Assembly: GCA_013306675.1 (NCBI GenBank)
Contig: JABLUY010000130.1
Coordinates: 40,574-104,573, forward strand
DNA: 64,000 bases
Reading direction: 5' to 3'
DNA from: Thraustochytrium sp. TN22
Lineage: Eukaryota; Sar; Bigyra; Thraustochytrida; Thraustochytriidae
Position 1 is the first letter of the stretch. Every line of letters begins with the position of its first letter. The notes under the pieces were generated by a model. It was not told where the DNA came from, ran no database searches, and saw only the letters and a program-made list of their open reading frames with translations. Of this stretch, positions 18,133-39,953 are shown in pieces. Made by a program: the position numbers and the translations under genes.

Positions 18133-21100
18133 ATGGGATGCACGCGGTCGTCGCTGCGGCGCGCGTCGTTCGCTGCGGCGCCGGAGGATGCCGCAGCGGC
18201 GGCGAGCGCGAAGGCCGGCAAGCGGCGCGGCTCGGGCAGGCCGGAGGATGAGCGCACGCGGACCGGCAGCGGGAGCGCTGACAGCCTGCACGGGAGGTCG
18301 GGCAAGGACGCGGCGGCGCGGAAGCGCGCGCTGGACCGCGGCGACGACGCAACCTCGGCCGGCCCCAGCGGTAGCGGGCCGGCCGAGGACGCGCCGCCGG
18401 CCCACGGGGACACCTTGTTGGGCCAGGTGCACCAGGAGCAGGAGCAGCAGCAGAAGCAGAAGCCACGGCGCGGGGCCGCGCGGCGCAAGCCGCAGCTGCC
18501 GGCACGCAAACGGAGCGAGGAGGATGAGGCGGTCCTGGTGAACGCCAGCGTCCCGCAGCGCCTCACGGACGTGGCGGCGCTGGAAAGCGAGGTCGTGCAG
18601 TTCGCCGGGATCAGGCTCAAGGAATTGCTGGAGCTCTGGCGCGCCGTGGTGGCCAAGGAGGCCGCCGCCAATGTCGTCCTGTACACGGCGCTCGAGGATC
18701 TGGACTGCGGTGTTGCCCAGGGCGACACGCTCGTGCGCGCGGCGCCTGCGTCACCGAGGCGCCGCGGCCTGGCGTCCTCCAGCGGCAGCGGCAGCGGCAG
18801 GAACCACAAGAACGGCAGCGGTCGCGTGCGCTGCATTGTGCCCATCCAGGAGCGCGAGGTAGAGGTGGACGCCAGCAAGGTGGCCGAGAAGGCCCGCGGC
18901 GACTGGACGCTCGCTGACGTGGCGGAGCATGTTGTGTACGCGCGCACCGGCGATGCGGAGTGCTTTCTGGCCGACACCATGGCGCCGGAAGCCTTTGGCG
19001 CGCCCTTCGAGGGCATCTTCGTGATCAGCGCGCTGGAAACCAGCATGGGCGCGCTGCTGAACGGCGTGCAGCGGTACTTTGAGCGTGCCGGCGTGCCGAC
19101 GGACCGCGCGTACCTGTGGCTGGACGTGCTGTGCGTGAACTGGTCGCTGATGACGCGGCGACTGCGCGGGCGGCCGGACGTGGCCGCGGCACAGCGGCGC
19201 AAAACATTCCGGCGCAGCCTGCACAAGGCGCAGGAGCACTTCGATGCGACCGTGCTGGTGCTTGAGGACTGGTGCGACGCGCGCCCGCTAGAGCGCGCGC
19301 TCTGCCTGTGGGAGGTCTACGGCGCGGCGCGCATCGAGCGCCCGTTTAGCTTGGTCTTCGGCGACGAGGACGGCGTTGACGTGCTCGGGTGGCTGCGCGC
19401 GGGCCGTGGCGGCGAGGAGCTCATTCAGGCCGTGTCCAACATCGACGTGCGCCGCATGCGCTGCCGCGATCCGGAGAACCTGTCGACCATCTGCCGTGCC
19501 GTCGCCAAGCTGCGTGGCGGCCTGCCCGAATTCAGCGCGACCGTGTCGTGCCGCCTCATGCGCTGGGTGCTGGACGAGGTGGAGCAAGCCGTGGTTTGCG
19601 CGGAGCGCGAGTGCCGCGATCCGACGCGCGACCGCGGCCTGGCCGACGTGCTGGTCAACGCCGGCGGCTTTATGCGTCAGATGGGCGAGCTTGAGCGCGC
19701 CGCTGCGTACTATAGCAAGGCCAGCAGCACGTACGAACGCCTTGAGGGCCCGCGTGGGGTGCGCGTGGGCCTCGCCAAACATCGCCTGGCGCTCGTGCGG
19801 CACGCACAGGGCAACGTGGACGCGGCCTACGCGCTCTTTGAGGAGGCGCTCTTCATCAAGCGCGCGCACTTTGGCGACCGCCACATGCGCGTCGCCGACC
19901 TTCTGCACAACTTCGCTGCCACGGCGCGCGAGCTGGGCGACTACGAGGACGCCGCGTCGCTCTACGAGGAAGCGCTTGCCATCAAGCGCGAGCTCGGCGA
20001 AGAGGTTTCGGCGGCCAACACGCTGCACGATTTGGCCTTTGTCAAGCGTCTGCAGGGCCGCTGCCAGGTGGCCTACGAGCTCTACGAGGAGGCGCTCGCC
20101 ATCTACCGCGCCTCGCCTGAGGACCGCCAGGCGGCCATCGCGCAGACGCTCAACAACATGGGCTCCGTGCTCGAGGCGCAGGGTCGCTTCGAGGACGCGC
20201 TCGTCATGTACCGCGAGGCGCTCGGTGTTTTGCAGGTCGATGACAGCGCGGCCGGCGGCGCGGCGGCCCAGGATGCTTCCGCCACCACAGCCTCGCAAGT
20301 GATGCCGCCACCGCTGCCGCTCCCGGAACAGCCGACACCGCTCAACACCCGGCACAAGCACCGTGCCTCTCTGGAGGCGCTCGCCGAGGAGGTGAGCAAT
20401 GCGGCGAGCGGGTCGGAGGACGACCCTGAAGATGACGACGACGAGGATGACGAGGGTGACGAGGATGACAAGGAGCGCAAGGCCGGCATCGCGGCGCGCA
20501 GAGAGACGGGCCAGAGTGGCACGAGCAGCAGCAGCGGCGGCGGCAGCGGCAGCGGCAGCGGGACGCGCCCCTCCTCGGGCAACGTGGCGGGCTGGCGCAA
20601 AAAGACCTCCACGACGGCGACGGGCCCGTCAGCGGCTGCGGCAGCGGCAGCCAAGCCGCCAACACCGCGATCGAGGCCCTTGAGCAAGAGGATTGGCAGC
20701 GGCGATGCGAGTGTGCCCAAGGCGCGCGCCGCGGGCGCCCGAGCCGCCGCGGCGGCGGCCGCGGCGGCCGCTGCCGTGGCGTCGTCGCGGCCGCGCGGGC
20801 CGAGCGCCGCCTCGTTGCCGGCCTTGGAGGCGGCGCACGAGCGGCGCGCCTCGGTGGCGGACGCGCTGGAGGGCATGGCGGTGGTCAAGGACGCGCAGGG
20901 CCGGCACGAAGAGTCGATGGAGCTCCTGCAAGAGGCGCTCGCGATCCGGCGCGAGTCGCTTTGCCAGTCACAGCTGCCAGGCGTGCGCGGCTTCGTGGAC
21001 GAGGCCGGCGTTGCGCATGTCCTGCGCGAGGACGAGGCGCAGACCGCGGACCGGCACGTGCAGGCGCGGCGGTCATCGGTGGCGCAGACGCTCAAGAGCA

Positions 21101-22629
21101 TGGCGGTGGTGACGGAGACGCAGGGCCGGCACGCCGAGGCGGCTGCGCTGCTGGAGGAAGCGCTGACGATCCGGCGCGAGACGCACGGCGAGCGCGACGG
21201 CGCCGTGGCGGACCTGCTGGAGTCCATGAGCGAGGCCGAGCAGGCGCAGGGCAAGCTGGATTTGGCGCATGCACACCTGGAGGAGGCGCTGGAGATTCGG
21301 CGCGCCGCCGCCGGCGAGACGCACGCCTCGGTGGCCAGCACCTTGGCCCGCATCGGCGCGGTGCGCAAGGCGCAGGGCCGGTACGAGGAGGCGCTGGCGA
21401 GCCTGGACAGCGCGCTAAGCATCCGCAAAACGGCGCTGGGCGCCTCTCACCCGCGCGTGGCAGATGTCCTGAATGACATGGGCGGCGTACGCGACGCGCA
21501 GGGCCAACACGAGGAGGCGCTGCGGCTGTACGAAGAGGCGCTCGCGCTGTATCGCGAGGCGGAGGCGCGCGGTGCGTCGGAGGCCACGACGCTCAACAAC
21601 ATGGGTATCGTGAAGAAGGCGCAGGGCAAGTACGAGGAGGCGCTGGCACTGTACCAGGCAGCGCTGGACATGAAGCGCGAAGCACTGGGGCCGCGGCACG
21701 TGTCGGAGGCCGACACGCTCAACAACGTGGCGGTGGTCAAGAGCCTGCAGGGTGACCTGGATGGCGCGCTCGCGCTTTACGAGGAGGCGCTGTCGATCCG
21801 GCGCGAGCGCCTGGGCGACCGCCACACGAGCGTGGCGGAGACGCTGCACAACATGGGCGTCGTGGAGAAGTCGCAGGGCAAGCACGACGCGGCCTATGCG
21901 CGCTTCGAGGAGGCGCTCGCCACGCAGCGCGCGCTCTCGCCGCAGCACCCGCTCGTGGCGCAGACGCTGAACAACATGGCGGTGATTTGCGAAAGCCAGG
22001 GCCGCTACGACGAGGCGCTGCGCCTGTGCGAGGAGGCGCTCGCCATCAAGCGCGCCATCTGGGGCGGCCGCCACCCGTCCGTGGCCGACACGCTCAACAA
22101 CATGGCCATTGTGCTGGAGGCGAACGGGAACGGCGATCGCGCGCTTGCGCTGTACGAGGACGTGCTGTCGATCCGCCGCGAGGCGCTCGGCGACAACAAC
22201 GTGGCCGTGGCGGACGCGCTTAACAACATGGCCGTGCTCATGGAGTCGCAGGGCAAGGACTACAAGGCGCTGGAGATGTACGGCGAGGCCCTCGCCATCA
22301 AGCGCCGCTGCCTGCCGGCGCGGCATCCGTCGATTGCTGACACGCTCAGCAACATGAGCGTGGTGAAACGCATGCAGGGGCGCTATGCCGAGGCACTCGA
22401 GCTCAACGAGGAGGCACTGGCCATCCACCGCGACGCCTTTGGTGATCACCACCCGATGGTGGCCACATCCATGTTCAACATGGCGCTCCTGCGGGAGGCG
22501 CTGGGCCAGGACGACCACGCGCTGCGCCTCGCCGAGCGCGCTTACGTGATTTGGCGCGACGCTCTGGGCGAGGACCATGCCGACACAGTGAATGCCGGGA
22601 TTCTGGTGCAAGACCTGCGCGGCATGTGA
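18133..22629 (+). CDS. Lipid-anchored HET-like domain plus TPR (kinesin-light-chain-like) repeat protein
   Basis: 1498 aa in a single exon. The N-terminus MGCTRSS fits N-myristoylation at Gly2 with palmitoylation at Cys3, so membrane attachment is likely. After a disordered basic and acidic region, residues about 285-480 form a globular module with FVISALE, AYLWLDVLCVNW (about 325) and ERALCLWEVYGA (about 386). Similar motifs occur in fungal HET domains (YxWIDxLCIN) and in algal or cyanobacterial TPR proteins. From about 500 to the end come roughly 18 TPR_12-type 42-residue repeats with the typical TLNNMAVVxxxQGxYxEALxLYEEALAIxR pattern. They are interrupted at about 700-900 by an acidic, Ser/Gly- and Ala-rich insertion. 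The TPR array should be a protein-binding scaffold. The effector role of the N-terminal module is unknown. Confidence 0.85.
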   Translation: MGCTRSSLRRASFAAAPEDAAAAASAKAGKRRGSGRPEDERTRTGSGSADSLHGRSGKDAAARKRALDRGDDATSAGPSGSGPAEDAPPAHGDTLLGQVHQEQEQQQKQKPRRGAARRKPQLPARKRSEEDEAVLVNASVPQRLTDVAALESEVVQFAGIRLKELLELWRAVVAKEAAANVVLYTALEDLDCGVAQGDTLVRAAPASPRRRGLASSSGSGSGRNHKNGSGRVRCIVPIQEREVEVDASKVAEKARGDWTLADVAEHVVYARTGDAECFLADTMAPEAFGAPFEGIFVISALETSMGALLNGVQRYFERAGVPTDRAYLWLDVLCVNWSLMTRRLRGRPDVAAAQRRKTFRRSLHKAQEHFDATVLVLEDWCDARPLERALCLWEVYGAARIERPFSLVFGDEDGVDVLGWLRAGRGGEELIQAVSNIDVRRMRCRDPENLSTICRAVAKLRGGLPEFSATVSCRLMRWVLDEVEQAVVCAERECRDPTRDRGLADVLVNAGGFMRQMGELERAAAYYSKASSTYERLEGPRGVRVGLAKHRLALVRHAQGNVDAAYALFEEALFIKRAHFGDRHMRVADLLHNFAATARELGDYEDAASLYEEALAIKRELGEEVSAANTLHDLAFVKRLQGRCQVAYELYEEALAIYRASPEDRQAAIAQTLNNMGSVLEAQGRFEDALVMYREALGVLQVDDSAAGGAAAQDASATTASQVMPPPLPLPEQPTPLNTRHKHRASLEALAEEVSNAASGSEDDPEDDDDEDDEGDEDDKERKAGIAARRETGQSGTSSSSGGGSGSGSGTRPSSGNVAGWRKKTSTTATGPSAAAAAAAKPPTPRSRPLSKRIGSGDASVPKARAAGARAAAAAAAAAAAVASSRPRGPSAASLPALEAAHERRASVADALEGMAVVKDAQGRHEESMELLQEALAIRRESLCQSQLPGVRGFVDEAGVAHVLREDEAQTADRHVQARRSSVAQTLKSMAVVTETQGRHAEAAALLEEALTIRRETHGERDGAVADLLESMSEAEQAQGKLDLAHAHLEEALEIRRAAAGETHASVASTLARIGAVRKAQGRYEEALASLDSALSIRKTALGASHPRVADVLNDMGGVRDAQGQHEEALRLYEEALALYREAEARGASEATTLNNMGIVKKAQGKYEEALALYQAALDMKREALGPRHVSEADTLNNVAVVKSLQGDLDGALALYEEALSIRRERLGDRHTSVAETLHNMGVVEKSQGKHDAAYARFEEALATQRALSPQHPLVAQTLNNMAVICESQGRYDEALRLCEEALAIKRAIWGGRHPSVADTLNNMAIVLEANGNGDRALALYEDVLSIRREALGDNNVAVADALNNMAVLMESQGKDYKALEMYGEALAIKRRCLPARHPSIADTLSNMSVVKRMQGRYAEALELNEEALAIHRDAFGDHHPMVATSMFNMALLREALGQDDHALRLAERAYVIWRDALGEDHADTVNAGILVQDLRGM

Positions 22630-22705
22630 TGGGTTTGGGCTCCTTTCGAGTGATCGATTGTTTCTGTTACATTTACATACGTTGATGGGCGGTGGTTGTT
22701 TGCTC

Positions 22706-24775
22706 TCAAGACTTGATTCTGCGTGTGATCTTAAGCACGGAGGCATTGCCGCGCTCCACAGCGTCAGCAGTGCGCTCGAGCTTGGCATTCTGGTCGTCGA
22801 GCTCGGCCGCCATGCGCTCCGCGACGACCCGGTTGTCGCTGAAGTTGGCCGCGGCCTCGTCTTCAAGCGAGGCGTCTGCGGCGAGGCGGTCGCGCGAGGC
22901 GCGCAGCGCAGCTTGGTCCCGCGCGAGCTCGCGGCGCAGCTCCTCCTGGCGCGCCTTGGCGTCGACCTGGCTAAGTTGGCCGCCCTGCCAAGTGACGAGG
23001 TTGCGCACGGCGCCAGTGAAGCGCGAGGCGCGATCGATGCGCTGCGTGTAGGTGGCGGCGTCGCCGACGAGAGCGGCGTTGCGCTCGGCGCGGGAAATCT
23101 GGTCGCCCTGGTCGGTAGCGCGCGACAAGGACTCGTTGAGCACAGTGTTGGTGGTGACGGAGCTGCGGTAGATGCCGTTCCAGAGCTGGCGCGTCTCGCG
23201 GTCCGCCGCGGAGAGCGCGGCGTCGCTGTCGGAGGCCTCGTGCAGCTGGCGCGCGCGCTCGAGCTTGGCAGCCGCGGCGCGGTGCGCGGGCGAGGTGCCG
23301 GGCTTGCCGACGAGGTAGCGCATCCAGAGCCGGCGGCGCACGACGCAGTTGCGCTTTGCCTCCGGGTACCAGGTGTCGGCGTTGGCGCGCGGCGCAAAGT
23401 CCCAACCGCCCAGGTCGGTGTTGGGGCGGTCCACGACGACGTCCCACTTGTGCGAGGCCCAGGTCCAGGCCACCTCGAGCTCGAGCTCGCGCCTGTGCAC
23501 GGCTTCGATCTCGTCCTCCTCGGCCTCGGTCAGGTGGTTGTAGTCGGAGCGCGCCTCGGCGAGCAGCTGCAGGCGTGCTTCAGCCGGCGTGTAGTCCTTT
23601 TCCGGGTGCGCGCCGCGGATGGGCTCGCCGAACTCGTCCGTCCAGAAGCGCTCGGTCTGCACCCACTTGCGCAGCATGAAGGACCACTGCTGCACCTCGT
23701 ACGCGTACACCTGCAGTGTGAACTCGCCGGACCGCTGCTTGCGCGCCGACAGCAGCGCCTTGATGCGCCGTGTCTCGGCGTTGATGGACCGCCGCTTGAC
23801 GGCGGCCACGCCCTTGCCTGCGATCATGCCCACGACGCCGCCGGCCGCTGCGCCGATGACCACGCCAACGGGGCCTCCCAGGATACCCACGAGGCCGCCC
23901 ACCGTGGCGGTGCCGAGCGAGGCTGTGGCAGCGCCCGTGCTGGCCTGCCGCCGGCGTGCGCGGCTCAGCTCGTGCACGCCCTCCATGGTGCGCTGCACAG
24001 AGTCGTCTGTGTTGTCTTCGAGCCGGCTCACGTCGTCGCCCTGCACCTCCAGCAGCGCACCCACCTCCGTGGCCATTTCCTCCACGAGCTGCGCGCTGCG
24101 CGCCACCTCGCGCAGCGCCGTCTGCTCGCTCTGCCGTGTGCTCTCCTCGTTGTACTCGCGCAGCGCATAGCCCTGCTGCTGCTGTTGTTGCTGCTGCTGC
24201 TGCTGCTCTTGCTCTTGCATGAGCATGAGCTGCTGCTGCTCCTGCTCCTGTTGCTCTTGCTGCTGTCGGCTCGAGAAGCGGCGCGCCTCGAGCTGGGCGC
24301 GCGCGCCAGAACGCCCTTCAGAGTGGGGCGCCTCCGGCGGCGGCGCGGCCGCCGCCTCGGCCAGGCGCTGCTGCTTGCGCAGTTCCGCCAGCACGAGCGT
24401 GGCGCGCTTGGCGGCCTGGTCCGCGCCTCGCACGCTGTCTGCGACGCGCAGCTTGCGGTCGTAGTCGCTCTTGAGCTTCTTGGCCTTGAAGGCCTGCGCG
24501 CCTGCGCCGGCCGCGCCACGCTTGACGAGCGCCAAGAACGCCTCGTCCTCCGCCTTGAGCTTGGCCTGCATCTCCGCGCACCGCTTCGCCTGCTGCTGCA
24601 GCTGGTCCGCGTCCGCCGCCAGCCGCCGCGCGTCGCGGCCCTGCGCCGCCGCCTGCTGCCGCTGCACCAGCGCGCCCAGCGCGCGCGCCGCCGCATCCGT
24701 CTTGCCGCACAGCTCGTGCAGCGCCACCAGCCGCCGCTGCGCGTCCTCCACCACGAAGCCCGCCGCGCCTGCCAT
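22706..24775 (-). CDS. Dysferlin-domain protein with three SNARE-like motifs
   Basis: 689 aa in a single exon. Order: helical coiled-coil N-terminus (1-140), Gln-rich tract (about 171-200), a syntaxin-type SNARE motif (about 215-270, core LEVQGDDVSRLEDNTDDSV with Gln244 at the zero layer), a Gly-rich hydrophobic segment (about 284-322), then a DysF (peroxin/TECPR1/ferlin) domain (about 352-490: VYEVQQW-like start, RFWTDEFGEPIRG, WTWASHKWDVVVD, GGWDFAP, VVRRRLWMRYLVG). The C-terminus has two more heptad segments resembling the Qb and Qc halves of SNAP-25: about 540-595 (NESLSRATDQGDQISRAE, Gln555 or Gln558) and about 645-689 (MAAELDDQNAKLERTADAV, Gln661). Established knowledge: DysF domains bind membranes and Q-SNAREs drive fusion. 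The combined role is inference. It is convergent with the TPR gene. Confidence 0.8.
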   Translation of the reverse strand: MAGAAGFVVEDAQRRLVALHELCGKTDAAARALGALVQRQQAAAQGRDARRLAADADQLQQQAKRCAEMQAKLKAEDEAFLALVKRGAAGAGAQAFKAKKLKSDYDRKLRVADSVRGADQAAKRATLVLAELRKQQRLAEAAAAPPPEAPHSEGRSGARAQLEARRFSSRQQQEQQEQEQQQLMLMQEQEQQQQQQQQQQQGYALREYNEESTRQSEQTALREVARSAQLVEEMATEVGALLEVQGDDVSRLEDNTDDSVQRTMEGVHELSRARRRQASTGAATASLGTATVGGLVGILGGPVGVVIGAAAGGVVGMIAGKGVAAVKRRSINAETRRIKALLSARKQRSGEFTLQVYAYEVQQWSFMLRKWVQTERFWTDEFGEPIRGAHPEKDYTPAEARLQLLAEARSDYNHLTEAEEDEIEAVHRRELELEVAWTWASHKWDVVVDRPNTDLGGWDFAPRANADTWYPEAKRNCVVRRRLWMRYLVGKPGTSPAHRAAAAKLERARQLHEASDSDAALSAADRETRQLWNGIYRSSVTTNTVLNESLSRATDQGDQISRAERNAALVGDAATYTQRIDRASRFTGAVRNLVTWQGGQLSQVDAKARQEELRRELARDQAALRASRDRLAADASLEDEAAANFSDNRVVAERMAAELDDQNAKLERTADAVERGNASVLKITRRIKS

Positions 24776-25779
24776 TGTTGCTGCGCTGCGCCTCGCCGCG
24801 CCGCCTGCACGACACGAGAGAGTTCTGCTGCATCAGCAGCAGTGTCTTCTTCTCCTTCTTCTTCTTCTTCGTCGCCGTCCCCAATCACAGGCAAGCAAGC
24901 AGAAGAAGAAGTTCGTCCATGCGTCCAAACCACGTGGTCAGGAGGATCACCGGCGAGCTCGTGAGAGGAGCGCCATGAACGAGCAGGGCAAGGCGCAACT
25001 TCGAACGAGAGACGAGGGCGAGTGTGACAAGAGCGAGCGAGACGGCGCGACAAGAGAGAGCTCTCCACGTCGGGGCTCTCGGCCAGAGGAACGTGCCTTT
25101 CTCGGCAGCGTCTCTGTGGCAGCGCTGTGATCGAATAGACTGCAAACTGCGGCCTTCAGAAAGTGCGGCCTTTTCATCTCTTGGCTTCAAGTTGGCTTTG
25201 AACTCGAAACGAGAACATCCAGAGCCAACACCCAGAGCCAACAAGAACGCAAGCGGGCTGATGATGACCCTCGGGGACGAGGCACGCGTCAGAGTGAGAG
25301 TCTCGCCAAGCCAAGCCAACCACAACTGACGGTGAACCGCCGCTCACAGACGGCCCTCGCTCGACCGCAGCTGCGGCACGCACTGCCGGGAGCCGAGCCC
25401 AATTTCATCAGCCCGAACTCCACCGTGCCGCCCGGCCATTCAGCTTCTCTCGAAGCCTTCACGTGCTCCGCGCCTCATCGGCCGCCCGTGTCAGCTACAG
25501 CTCCCGTCGACAGCACCGCGCATCGCATCGCCTCGCCTCGCCTCGCATCGCCTCTCATCGCAGCAGCCTGCCATCATCCCACGCGCCGGATCAGCGGTCG
25601 CCCAGTCAGTCTCATGAACGAGGCCAACTTCCAGCCTCGGCGCGCCCTGCTCCGCGTCAGCCCGCCTCGCCTCGCCGGCGGGCTCGACTCGAGCCCCGCT
25701 CCGATCAGCCCGCGCTTTGCAGTGCGCTGCGCGCCGCCGCCCCCGCCGCCGCGCCCGCCGCCGCCTCGCGGTCAGCTCC

Positions 25780-36056: not shown

Positions 36057-38513
36057 TCAGAGCATGTCATCATCAACCTCAGAAGAAAACGAACGCTGGC
36101 TGCTGCTGCTGCTGGAAGCCGAAGCACCACTGAGGCGCTTGGAGGAGGCGAGCGAGAGGGACGCGCCGCTCTGAGCACCGAGCACGCAGAAGCGCTCCAG
36201 AGGCAGCTTGGCAACGCCAGCAAAGAGCTCGCTGGCCTCGTTGACGATGGCAATACCCCGGGCGCCCAGCAGCGAGAACGCGGCGTGAGGTGTGATGTGG
36301 AAGACGTGGCCATCACGCCAGAGAAAGACCCGCACCGGGATGGGCCCGCCCGACAACACGGTCTGCACGCTGTCGTGCTCGTAGGCGATCTTCAAAAAGG
36401 CCGTGATGCCCGAGTAGTAGCGGCCAAGGCCGCCCGTGCCCAGAAAGCCGCGCGAGAGCTCCTGGCGGCCGTCGTTGTGCTGGAACTTAAAGGACGGCAC
36501 CGAGATGCCCTCGCCCACGAAGAAGCGGCCAATGGCGTCCTCGACCGGCTCCATGCTCCACTTGAGCAGCAGCGTGCCACTCGAGGCCTCCGAGTAGCAC
36601 AGGTAGCACGCGGCGGGCGGCTCGCTGCGCGGCTTGTCGAGCGACCGCTGCAGGCTGGCATGCATGGCGGCACGGTTTACGCTCTGGCGACCTTGCGTCT
36701 CGCGCGCCTTGTTCTTGGCCATTTGCGCCTTGAGCGCCTCCATGCGCTCCAGGATCTCGGCGCGCGACTCCTCCTGCGCGCGCTCACTCTCCAGCTTGAC
36801 CTCCATCAGCTCGCGCTCCTTGGCCTCTAGCGCCGCCAGGTCCTCCGCCTCTGCCGCCTCCGCCTCCGCCTCCGCTGCGGCTGCTACATTTTCCGCCTCC
36901 TCCTCTTCCACGGTGGCGTCCTCGACATCCTCCTCGACGCTCCGACGGTGCGAGCGACGGCGCGAGCGACGGTGCGAGTGACGGTGCGAGCCGCGGCGCG
37001 AGCTGCGGCGCCGGGCGGCCGTCTTGGTCACCTGGGCCGCCTGGGCCGCCTGCTCCTCTGCCTCGACGTCACCCTCCTCGAGGTCCTCAACGGCCTGGTC
37101 GTCGACCTGGTCGTCGTCCTCCTCCTCGTCGGCACCCTCATCGTCCTCGAAGCTGTCGTGGACGTGGCCAAGCGCCGCCTCGGCGGTGCGCAGGTCCTCC
37201 GCGGCGGCGAGCTCCTCGAGCGGGCGCGCGTGGTCCTCAGCGCCACCGGCGTGCGACTCATCCTCCTCGTCGCTCGTCGCGAGCTCGACGACCGAGGGCT
37301 TTTGCTTGGTCATGGAGCGGTTCGTGCTCGTGCGGCGCGTGATGCTGAGGCGGCCGACGAGACGGCCCACGGACTTGCGCAGATTGCGGCGCTCCTCCGA
37401 AAGACGCGGAGGCGCGGCGGGCGGCGTCGAGCCCAGGGAGCCCGGCACGGCGCCGTCGTCCATGCTGGCGCGATCGCGCTTCATGACGCGCAGCGCGGCC
37501 AGCTCGCGCTCGGCGGCCCTGGCACGGCGCTCGGCCGCGATGGCCTTGTTTTGCAGCTCCTGCACACGCGAGGCGTGCTGGCTCGACATGAGGTTCATGA
37601 GCTCCGCCTCGCGGCGCTGCATCTCCTGGGCGCGATCCATAGCCTCGGCGCCGTCGTCGGCGCGGTTCTGCAGCTCGAGCCACATGCGCAGCTCGCAGAG
37701 GCCAGCGTTGTCGCCGTTGAAGTGGCGCATCGTGGCGCGCGTGGTGGCCAGCGCGTCGCGCACCTCGTCGGCGCGCTCCTCGAACTCGAGCGCGCCGTCC
37801 TCGTCGTCGCGCGCGCGCAGGTAGCCGGCCAGCGCCTCGCAGGCGTCGATCACACCCTTGTGCTCCTCGCCCATGGAGAGCTCCATCATGCGCAGCGCCT
37901 GGCGCAGGATGGTCTCCACGTTGCCGCTGGCGTTCTGCCGCACGAGCAGCTCGGCGCACCGCAGGTTGAGCTGCGCCTGGTTGCGGATCTCCTGCAGAAT
38001 GTGCTGGATCCACACCTCGGCCTCCTCGCCGTTCTTGGCGCGGAAGCGCAAGTGGCGACCGTTCGCCAGCACGAGCCCAAAGTTGCGCTCGCCGCGCCGC
38101 GCGTACCGCACGTCCGCCACGTTCGACAGGTTCACCGTGCTCTCGCTCGGCTCCGAGGACGCCGACAGCGAGCTGGACCGCGACTCCGTGAAGGAGCCCC
38201 CGGCGAACGGGTCGTCTTCGTCCTCGCTGCGCGTGATGCGCAGGCGGCCCTCCTCCAGCACCAGGAACCGCGTGGCCCACGCGAAGGGCGTGCGGCCCTT
38301 GAGCCGCTCGGACCTCATCTTGAGCACGCCCTCCATGCGCACGGACCTCCCGCCCGCCATGAGGATGCCCAGCGGCGTCGACGGCACGCTGGCGAACGAG
38401 GCCGCCGACGCCTCGCTCGACCTCTTGGCGCGCTCCAGGCGCTCGCCGCGCCCTGGCCGCATCGACATGCGCCTTGCGGCGCTCTCCACGCTCTCCAGCA
38501 CAGACGCGAGCAT
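36057..38513 (-). CDS. PH-domain, coiled-coil protein of unknown role
   Basis: The 818-aa protein starts at ATG 38513 (MLASVLESVESAARRMSMRP). The open frame extends 211 codons upstream, but that part is low-complexity GC-rich DNA. Residues about 56-175 form a PH domain with an acidic Ser-rich insertion (VRMEGVLKMRSERLKG, WATRFLVLEEGRLRI, then RHLRFRAKNGEEAEVWIQHI with the terminal-helix Trp). A short helical region resembling a TPR hairpin follows (ILRQALRMMELSMGEEHK). Then there is a coiled coil and a highly charged central region (Glu/Asp runs, RS/RH-rich block SRRGSHRHSHRRSRRRSHRR), and another Glu-rich coiled coil. The last about 190 residues (CYLCYSEASSGTLLLKW to the end) look globular but match no family known to me. 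Possibly a membrane-recruited scaffold. Confidence 0.8.
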   Translation of the reverse strand: MLASVLESVESAARRMSMRPGRGERLERAKRSSEASAASFASVPSTPLGILMAGGRSVRMEGVLKMRSERLKGRTPFAWATRFLVLEEGRLRITRSEDEDDPFAGGSFTESRSSSLSASSEPSESTVNLSNVADVRYARRGERNFGLVLANGRHLRFRAKNGEEAEVWIQHILQEIRNQAQLNLRCAELLVRQNASGNVETILRQALRMMELSMGEEHKGVIDACEALAGYLRARDDEDGALEFEERADEVRDALATTRATMRHFNGDNAGLCELRMWLELQNRADDGAEAMDRAQEMQRREAELMNLMSSQHASRVQELQNKAIAAERRARAAERELAALRVMKRDRASMDDGAVPGSLGSTPPAAPPRLSEERRNLRKSVGRLVGRLSITRRTSTNRSMTKQKPSVVELATSDEEDESHAGGAEDHARPLEELAAAEDLRTAEAALGHVHDSFEDDEGADEEEDDDQVDDQAVEDLEEGDVEAEEQAAQAAQVTKTAARRRSSRRGSHRHSHRRSRRRSHRRSVEEDVEDATVEEEEAENVAAAAEAEAEAAEAEDLAALEAKERELMEVKLESERAQEESRAEILERMEALKAQMAKNKARETQGRQSVNRAAMHASLQRSLDKPRSEPPAACYLCYSEASSGTLLLKWSMEPVEDAIGRFFVGEGISVPSFKFQHNDGRQELSRGFLGTGGLGRYYSGITAFLKIAYEHDSVQTVLSGGPIPVRVFLWRDGHVFHITPHAAFSLLGARGIAIVNEASELFAGVAKLPLERFCVLGAQSGASLSLASSKRLSGASASSSSSSQRSFSSEVDDDML

Positions 38514-39953
38514 GGTCCCTGCCCGCGGCGCTCTGCGCGCTCGCTGCCTGGCCTGCTGCCTGCCTGCTGCCTGCCTGCTGCTGCCTGTCTGCCGCCGCCC
38601 GCCCGCCCGCCCGCGCCGCGCCGCGCGCGCCGGTGGCAAACTGGTCTGCCTGCTGCACCCGCGCACGTGCCGCGCCGCGCTTGCGCTTGTGCGACCGCCG
38701 CGCCGCCGCGCCACCGCAGCCAGCCAGGAGTGGACCCGGCGGCGCTCCTCGCGCTCGGGCGCGCGACTCGGGTCTGCCCTCCGCCCGCGGCGAGCGGGGT
38801 TTCTTGGCCTGGCGGCTGGACCCGAGCGCGCCTGGCCAGGCCGGCGCCCTGGACTCGAGGCGAGGCTCCGAGTCGCGCCAAGCAGGCAAGGCCAGGCTGA
38901 CTCCGGGGGACGCGCGCGCGCGGTCCCGAGGCGACGTCGAGGCGACTGAGAGAGAGAGAGAGAGAGAGAGGGCTGCGGCGCGGCGCGTGCGGGCGGCCGC
39001 GAGGGGCGCGCGCCCAGTCGCGGCGCCTCGGCGCGCGAGGGCTGGCTAGCTCGCATCGACGCGGGGCCCGTGCGGTGCGCGGCGAGGCTGCTGGAGCTGG
39101 AGCTGGCATGGGGCGTGCTGGTGTTTTTTCTTCTCGTCCGGGTCATCTGTGGGGCACTTCAACTCGTGACAGCGTGCACTGCCTGCACAACTGCCAGACA
39201 GCGAGGAGTCGGAGGACCGGCTGGCTCAGACGCGCTGATGTGGAGAGCACGGCGAAGAGACCACGGCGGAGCTGCAGGAGCAGGCCGACGCGCCGCGCGA
39301 GGGAGTGCAGGCAGGCAGGCAGGTAGCAGCGAGCCTGGCAGCAGGGCCATCGAGCAGGAGCCGCGGCCCCAGCGGCCACGGCTCCGCGGGTGCAGCCTAC
39401 CTGCAGGGCCCGTGCGGTGAGGACTCGATCCTGGCCGAGAGCTCTCACGGGGGCGTATCGGACTCTAGGAGCAGGCTGTATGCGCGTGCACGCGTGCTCG
39501 CGTGCGGCCATCCTCGTCGTACGAGCGAGTTTAGTTCGCACCCCCCCCCCGGATGATTCATAGGCCGGCAATGCCAGTGCAACCTTTCCAGCATCAGCCC
39601 GCTCGAAATGACCGCCCTTGTGATGATGCCGTCCAGCGCCACTGTTCGCTTGGGCTTGTCGTTCGCTCGGGCTTGTCGTTCGCTCGCTCGCTCGTTGCGT
39701 CGGTGAAATGAAGTCTCTTCGTTCGACTTGGTGCTTGATTGCTCGCACTCACCTCGCGCGCGCCAAGGCTCGCTTGGACTTGGCTCCGTCGTTGCGAGCC
39801 TGTCTTCCAGAGCCTCCAGCGTGCGCAAGTTCTTCGCGTCGCTCGCGAGCTTCGCTTTAAGCTCTGGCGGTCTATTCGCGTACCTTGGGCCACTTGGCTC
39901 AAGTAGTTGAAGTAGAGGATCAACGGCGACGGCGACGTGCCGCGCTCGTGCGT

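Follow-up and report, generated by a model that had tools for sequence, protein, structure and literature searches.

We describe an open reading frame of 689 amino acids (P0001) on the minus strand of the window, the 64,000-nucleotide stretch of Thraustochytrium sp. TN22 DNA that was analysed, at positions 22706..24775, and propose that it encodes a natural fusion protein, in which a syntaxin-17 (STX17)-like Qa-SNARE shares one chain with a DysF domain and with a Qbc-SNARE resembling SNAP29. We give this reading slightly less than an even chance (roughly 0.45). On the same near-even odds, the protein would be a natural one-chain Q-SNARE acceptor that brings together Qa, Qb and Qc, is held by a syntaxin-17-type hairpin anchor and is gated by a lipid-sensing DysF domain. 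The modules are known ones, joined as Qa, DysF and Qbc in an order that we have not seen described: neither a natural protein combining a SNARE with DysF nor a natural one-chain Q-SNARE was found among the titles and abstract openings listed from the open-access literature, in keeping with the sequence-only reading, which knew of no described protein with such a set. A Qa motif, a DysF domain, a Qc motif and a hairpin-type anatomy can be recognized in the chain, and besides Qa and DysF it appears to hold at least one, and probably two, further fusion helices. The frame is real, and four of five pieces proposed for this protein hold. Qa and DysF are firm and Qc is supported, while the Qb segment fell short of significance.

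The frame runs through 689 codons with 0 stops, and each of ten consecutive blocks has a GC3 of 0.80-0.97. The ORF therefore reads as a single coding exon would, also across the junction of the Qa and DysF parts, in agreement with the earlier view of a single minus-strand polypeptide. Along the chain the order is Qa, Gly-rich segment, DysF, Qb-like helix and Qc, and the letters pointed out before are all present, namely LEVQGDD (Gln245), DQGDQ (Gln556), ELDDQNAKLER (Gln662), those of DysF and the Gly-rich segment. That two neighbouring genes, one for a Qa-SNARE and the other for a DysF-Qbc protein, are read as one frame by chance or through an assembly or splicing error appears very improbable; the join would fall at about residue 345, which is just where STX17 would end, but GC3 is 0.88 and 0.93 in the blocks flanking this point and no stop interrupts the 689 codons. 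Between the stop of the ORF and the end of a convergent TPR gene (18133-22629) lie just 76 bases, which makes it unlikely that another exon there supplies a membrane anchor at the C-terminus. This neighbour, on the plus strand, encodes 1498 amino acids with many TPR_12/TPR_10 repeats and is of the nephrocystin-3 kind. The GC3 filter did not retain an antisense frame of 790 amino acids (22592-24964, plus strand). Elsewhere in the window (36057-39146, minus strand), an ORF of 1029 amino acids carries a PH domain together with an IMP2_N domain (PF18590, E 1e-14), of the apicomplexan family named Immune Mapped Protein 2. Searches with six short peptides per query confirmed no relatives in a viral contig collection (14, 1 and 31 pattern candidates) or among prokaryotic genome contigs (105 pattern candidates).

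The N-terminal part, residues 1-142 (24350..24775, minus strand), is predicted by single-sequence AF2 to form three helices (2-40, 47-87 and 99-142; block pLDDT 45-76), which may make up a Habc-like regulatory bundle. Foldseek with the model returned the N-terminal domains of syntaxin-1A (1ez3, E 3.7) and syntaxin-12 (2dnx, E 5.5), neither of them significant. A Gln/Glu-rich tract lies at residues 169-201 (24173..24271, minus strand).

The Qa-SNARE motif occupies residues 219-280 around the zero-layer Gln245 (23936..24121, minus strand), and its assignment is firm on the sequence comparisons made. A Qa profile of 19 sequences, 13 reference motifs and 6 Qa motifs of the same genome, scored 20.6 bits there, a value reached by 0/2000 block shuffles, which bears out the proposed syntaxin-like Q-SNARE with a central Gln. 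When every possible anchor was scored without gaps, position 245 ranked first of 638 for Qa with 43.3, the runner-up having 7.5. Pfam SNARE (PF05739) matched residues 250-280 at E 0.002 with 18.5 bits, below its cut-off of 26.8 bits, and the 27 PDB matches of the Qa/hairpin region at E<=10 (best E 0.048) comprised 18 syntaxins, 2 designed SNAREs and 7 unrelated proteins. The ungapped Qa scores were led by STX16, L005 and STX7, with STX17 absent among the 14 rows listed, and in a 20-row tree of Qa motifs the ORF was the longest end branch, lying in an open fork and not joined to STX17. Leave-one-out scoring placed all three motifs of the protein below every reference member (for Qa, 43.3 vs a minimum of 43.7). 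SNARE class calls are loose in the ungapped test, because the Qa segment scores 27.9 on the Qc profile and the Qc segment itself 27.7.

We call the protein STX17-like on the basis of its anatomy and one genome-wide search, not of motif scores or the tree. STX17 is set apart from other syntaxins by a hydrophobic domain of 44 residues, likely a hairpin (PMC11864666, Kato and Tagaya). Residues 277-320 of the ORF (23816..23947, minus strand) form a Gly-rich hydrophobic segment of the same 44 residues, without any Lys, Arg, Asp or Glu and with a hydropathy of up to 1.94 over 19 residues, and the segment starts 33 residues past Gln245, the same spacing as in human STX17. Immediately behind it comes a basic tail (residues 321-351; 23723..23815, minus strand) with 10 K/R and 2 D/E, and among all 30-residue windows of the protein those starting at 319-321 are the most basic, with a net charge of +9. 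The STX17 tail past the hydrophobic domain varies, being basic in human and nematode and acidic in fly (PMC11864666). Judging from its length and hydropathy, the Gly-rich segment is likely to be a hairpin anchor like that of STX17, and the resemblance suggests the Qa type. The segment noticed earlier is present; it was treated then as a spacer, but it matches the described STX17 hairpin anchor. A single transmembrane anchor after Qa is unlikely: 44 uncharged residues are too long for one pass, one pass would part the motifs, and the uncharged tail runs measure only 16-28 residues in 6 other Qa-type frames among 8 read (tails cut by eye).

When human STX17 was compared with the whole 37.9-Mb genome (453 contigs), the ORF came first of 5 matches at E 5.2e-6, aligned to query residues 149-285, that is, motif plus hairpin; the second match, at E 0.129, was a Qa resembling the plasma-membrane type by eye. 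Residues 142-228 of the query were verified letter for letter against the PDB. The real score was reached by 0/1000 sequences in which motif, hairpin and tail were all shuffled in place and by 12/1000 and 13/2000 in which the hairpin alone was shuffled, implying that the Gly-rich composition inflates the hairpin match. Several other matches were put down to composition and set aside, namely the bacterial Gly-zipper lipoprotein SlyB (E 0.14), PdsO (E 7e-4, 19 bits vs a cut-off of 152), C19orf12 and DUF456, all of them confined to the Gly-rich stretch and the part behind it.

Lys254 of human STX17 is reported as required for autophagosome targeting (PMC11864666). No equivalent of it occurs within the hydrophobic segment 277-320 of the ORF, which speaks against the protein simply being sent to autophagosomes by the rule known from animals, and nematode SYX-17 is likewise without the hairpin-loop Lys (PMC11864666). 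The membrane of the ORF protein could equally be an ER contact, the mitochondrion or the lipid body. STX17 is described as ancient and lost in several lineages (PMC11864666), and its distribution as patchy (PMC5399786).

The basic tail leads into the DysF domain at residues 352-489 (23309..23722, minus strand), composed of N and C halves with a poorly predicted insert between them that adds ~40 residues. The two best PDB matches of this region were the DysF domains of dysferlin and TECPR1, and the predicted model matched DysF structures at ranks 1-9. The sequence-profile match spans 404-487, the N half being based on alignment and model. Taken together, the sequence matches and the predicted fold make the DysF assignment firm. 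Pfam PF06398 gave no match to the ORF; the same profile was over its cut-off at two other places of the genome (C132 and C291) and sub-threshold on C1, and we therefore rejected the ORF as a Pex24p/Pex30 orthologue. DysF also occurs in two very large frames, both VPS13-like by eye, one of 3896 amino acids (L010/L017, C132) and one of 3785 amino acids (L014/L018, C291), the latter carrying two DysF domains.

Beyond DysF, ~42 residues lead to a Qb-like helix (residues 532-584, candidate zero-layer Gln556; 23024..23182, minus strand), and another ~53 from this helix to a Qc-type SNARE motif at the very C-terminus (residues 638-688, zero-layer Gln662; 22712..22864, minus strand). The two segments had been likened to the halves of SNAP-25, which is supported for Qc and falls short of significance for Qb. 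The Qc profile made here matched residues 652-688 with 11.5 bits, reached by 0/2000 shuffles, and this HMM, giving the Qa segment 4.3 bits, separates the two segments. A one-against-one hhalign comparison with Qc gave E 4e-4 with a probability of just 34%, the best single relatives of the segment were STX8, SNAP29 and SNAP25, and in the leave-one-out test it scored 27.7 vs a reference minimum of 35.6. The third motif is thus supported by the profiles built here, its SNARE nature being surer than its class.

The Qb profile at the Gln556 segment scored -1.6 bits, which 113/2000 shuffles reached, and a profile of SNAP-type Qb motifs only was reached by 73/2000. The top match of the Qb profile in the protein was instead the C-terminal helix 651-673 (5.9 bits), hhalign found no Qb match at the Gln556 segment, and the leave-one-out score was -2.2 vs at least 16.3 for all true Qb motifs. 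In Pfam, the C-terminal 194 amino acids had no SNARE match, only a weak one to Snapin/Pallidin (E 0.17), and the C-terminal 184 amino acids gave nothing in the PDB at E<=10. HMM searches with the second and third segments were thus divided, Pfam reporting no SNARE and our own profiles being significant for Qc and not for Qb. The refuting outcome named beforehand, a lack of significant SNARE hits for these two segments, therefore applies to Qb but not to Qc. These results would suit a protein made of a Qa-SNARE, DysF and one extra Qc, in which 532-584 is a linker coiled coil and a separate V-SNARE_C Qb completes the bundle. Such an arrangement is a serious though unlikely alternative: Qb is the sole motif failing significance, and PF12352 finds 8 Qb-type places in the genome, 6 of them over the cut-off. 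Against it, the helix lies in the right place with a well-placed central Gln and a Qb-type layer pattern, and its Qb score was matched by 2/1811 Pro-free background windows and 0/82 Gln-anchored ones, a small comparison drawn from 18 other window ORFs. Among the 638 anchors, position 556 also comes 4th for Qb, where 662, 245 and 648 score higher, but only 99th for Qc.

Returning to a Qbc-type C-terminus, the spacing between Gln556 and Gln662 is 106 residues and therefore leaves room for a SNAP-type linker, whose length is similar to the ~53 residues found here. The only Cys residues of the protein are 23, 66 and 477, with none between the two C-terminal helices, and the SNAP29 linker is Cys-free as well. 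When SNAP29 was used as a genome query, the 6 matches obtained at E<=10 did not include the ORF, which goes against a SNAP29 label. A whole-chain AF2 model made without an alignment (pLDDT 51.6, pTM 0.27) is too poor to judge a parallel bundle. The best Foldseek match of this model, a chain of the Sec18-Sec17-Sec9-Sso1-Snc1 particle (E 0.33), was left unused, the helices being drawn through the DysF region, and short [WFY]xx[LIV] motifs, 4 of which were found, occur at chance level.

Three or four separate proteins make up a SNARE complex, and the way in which the Q-SNAREs are united ranks among the major questions in membrane fusion. For the protein described here, we infer the Qb part, the assembly, the membrane and the function. 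In the one-chain acceptor that we favour, the 44-residue segment would insert as a hairpin and the parts before and after it would stay cytosolic, so that Qa, DysF, the Qb-like helix and Qc would be on the same side of the membrane and could meet; a single pass would place Qa and DysF-Qb-Qc on opposite sides. DysF would bind a lipid, for example phosphatidic acid, that lies on or becomes exposed at a membrane of the endolysosomal system, an ER contact or autophagy, and would thereby place or switch the protein. The DysF of Pex30 binds phosphatidic acid and acts at ER contact sites, and that of TECPR1, which acts where autophagosomes meet lysosomes, binds sphingomyelin (PMC12101078, PMC12128658); from this lipid binding we infer a lipid-placed one-chain acceptor. 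The chain would then fold back to align Qa, the Qb-like helix and Qc in parallel. Since the three Q helices would be on one chain, no soluble SNAP partner would have to be recruited, and the acceptor would await an R-SNARE on the opposite membrane. The animal pair of STX17 and SNAP29 works with VAMP8, VAMP7 or Ykt6 (PMC5937789), VAMP8 being named also in PMC11864666. Synaptobrevin-family places are found in the genome, 5 of the 8 listed being over the cut-off, and so is ATG8 (best 159 bits). One synaptobrevin-type motif, just over the cut-off with 27.0 bits (L032, C449:84125-84289), lies in a frame of 1066 amino acids that is possibly tomosyn-like.

The same parts might serve otherwise, as an inhibitory or tethering scaffold without a role in fusion, in which Qa is blocked by the C-terminal helices lying against it in the manner of an i-SNARE or Habc domain, and DysF keeps the protein at lipid droplets or membrane contacts; we find this reading unlikely. 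Each of the three motifs diverges more than every reference member tested, and thraustochytrids are rich in oil, both of which favour a scaffold. So do the non-fusion roles of STX17, mitochondrial fission and lipid-droplet expansion (PMC11864666), and the activity of the Pex30 DysF at ER contact sites (PMC12101078). On the other hand, each of the three helices has a Gln in its central layer, where a scaffold would have no need of it.

If the one-chain acceptor is true, a chain with all Q helices would remove the step of Q-SNARE assembly and could be used as it stands as a fusogen in reconstitution. Such a chain would also be a 'Rosetta' fusion tying STX17, a SNAP29-type Qbc and DysF together outside animals, one gene merging the metazoan STX17-SNAP29 pair with a TECPR1-like DysF module, which would suggest that the partnership of the three is old or has arisen again. 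It would be a hint that lipid sensing by DysF and fusion of the STX17 type share one pathway, for which membrane repair, autophagy and lipid-body turnover would be candidates.

Other unusual genes were seen in the same genome. One frame (L027:841-2403, C256) has a Qb motif, followed by a domain of the PH type (PF15409, E 9e-7, slightly below the cut-off) and a Qc-like motif (by eye), and thus resembles SNAP25 with a PH domain placed in the linker. At the zero-layer column, Ser takes the place of Gln in an STX5/Sed5-like Qa-SNARE frame (L004, C65), as does Asn in a Qb frame (L022, C257). A PUFA synthase PfaA frame of 3044 amino acids (L048, C124:28500-36500) contains ten acyl-carrier domains (PF00550) 327 bp apart, nine of which score identically, and NCBIfam on the fetched part of the frame gave PfaA at 1974.6 bits vs a cut-off of 1010.1; a tandem array of about nine or ten ACPs in PfaA is typical of thraustochytrids.

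Compared with known systems, the ORF is similar to L027 in that one polypeptide combines a Qbc-type SNARE with a domain of a lipid-binding type, whereas L027 has its PH-type domain between Qb and Qc and neither Qa nor a hairpin. The designed sc-t-SNARE (PDB 9y5f) likewise seems, judged by name alone, to carry several Q helices in one chain, but by its name we take it as an engineered construct, and to our knowledge it has no hairpin or DysF. With TECPR1, dysferlin/myoferlin and Pex30 the ORF shares the DysF sequence and predicted fold, while Pfam reports no C2, tectonin repeats or reticulon-like region in it and the ~40 residues between its DysF halves are additional. Like SNAP29/SNAP25-type Qbc proteins, it has a Qb-like and then a Qc helix at a Gln-Gln spacing of 106; in contrast to them, it is not a separate protein but fused behind Qa and DysF, and its Qb half is not significant. 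STX17 has in common with it the Qa motif, the 44-residue uncharged segment 33 residues past the zero-layer Gln, the Gly-zipper-like letters in this segment and the basic tail. The ORF differs in having no Lys254 equivalent and in standing apart from STX17 in the motif tree and the top motif scores, and, whereas STX17 ends after the tail, the ORF goes on with DysF and SNARE-type helices.
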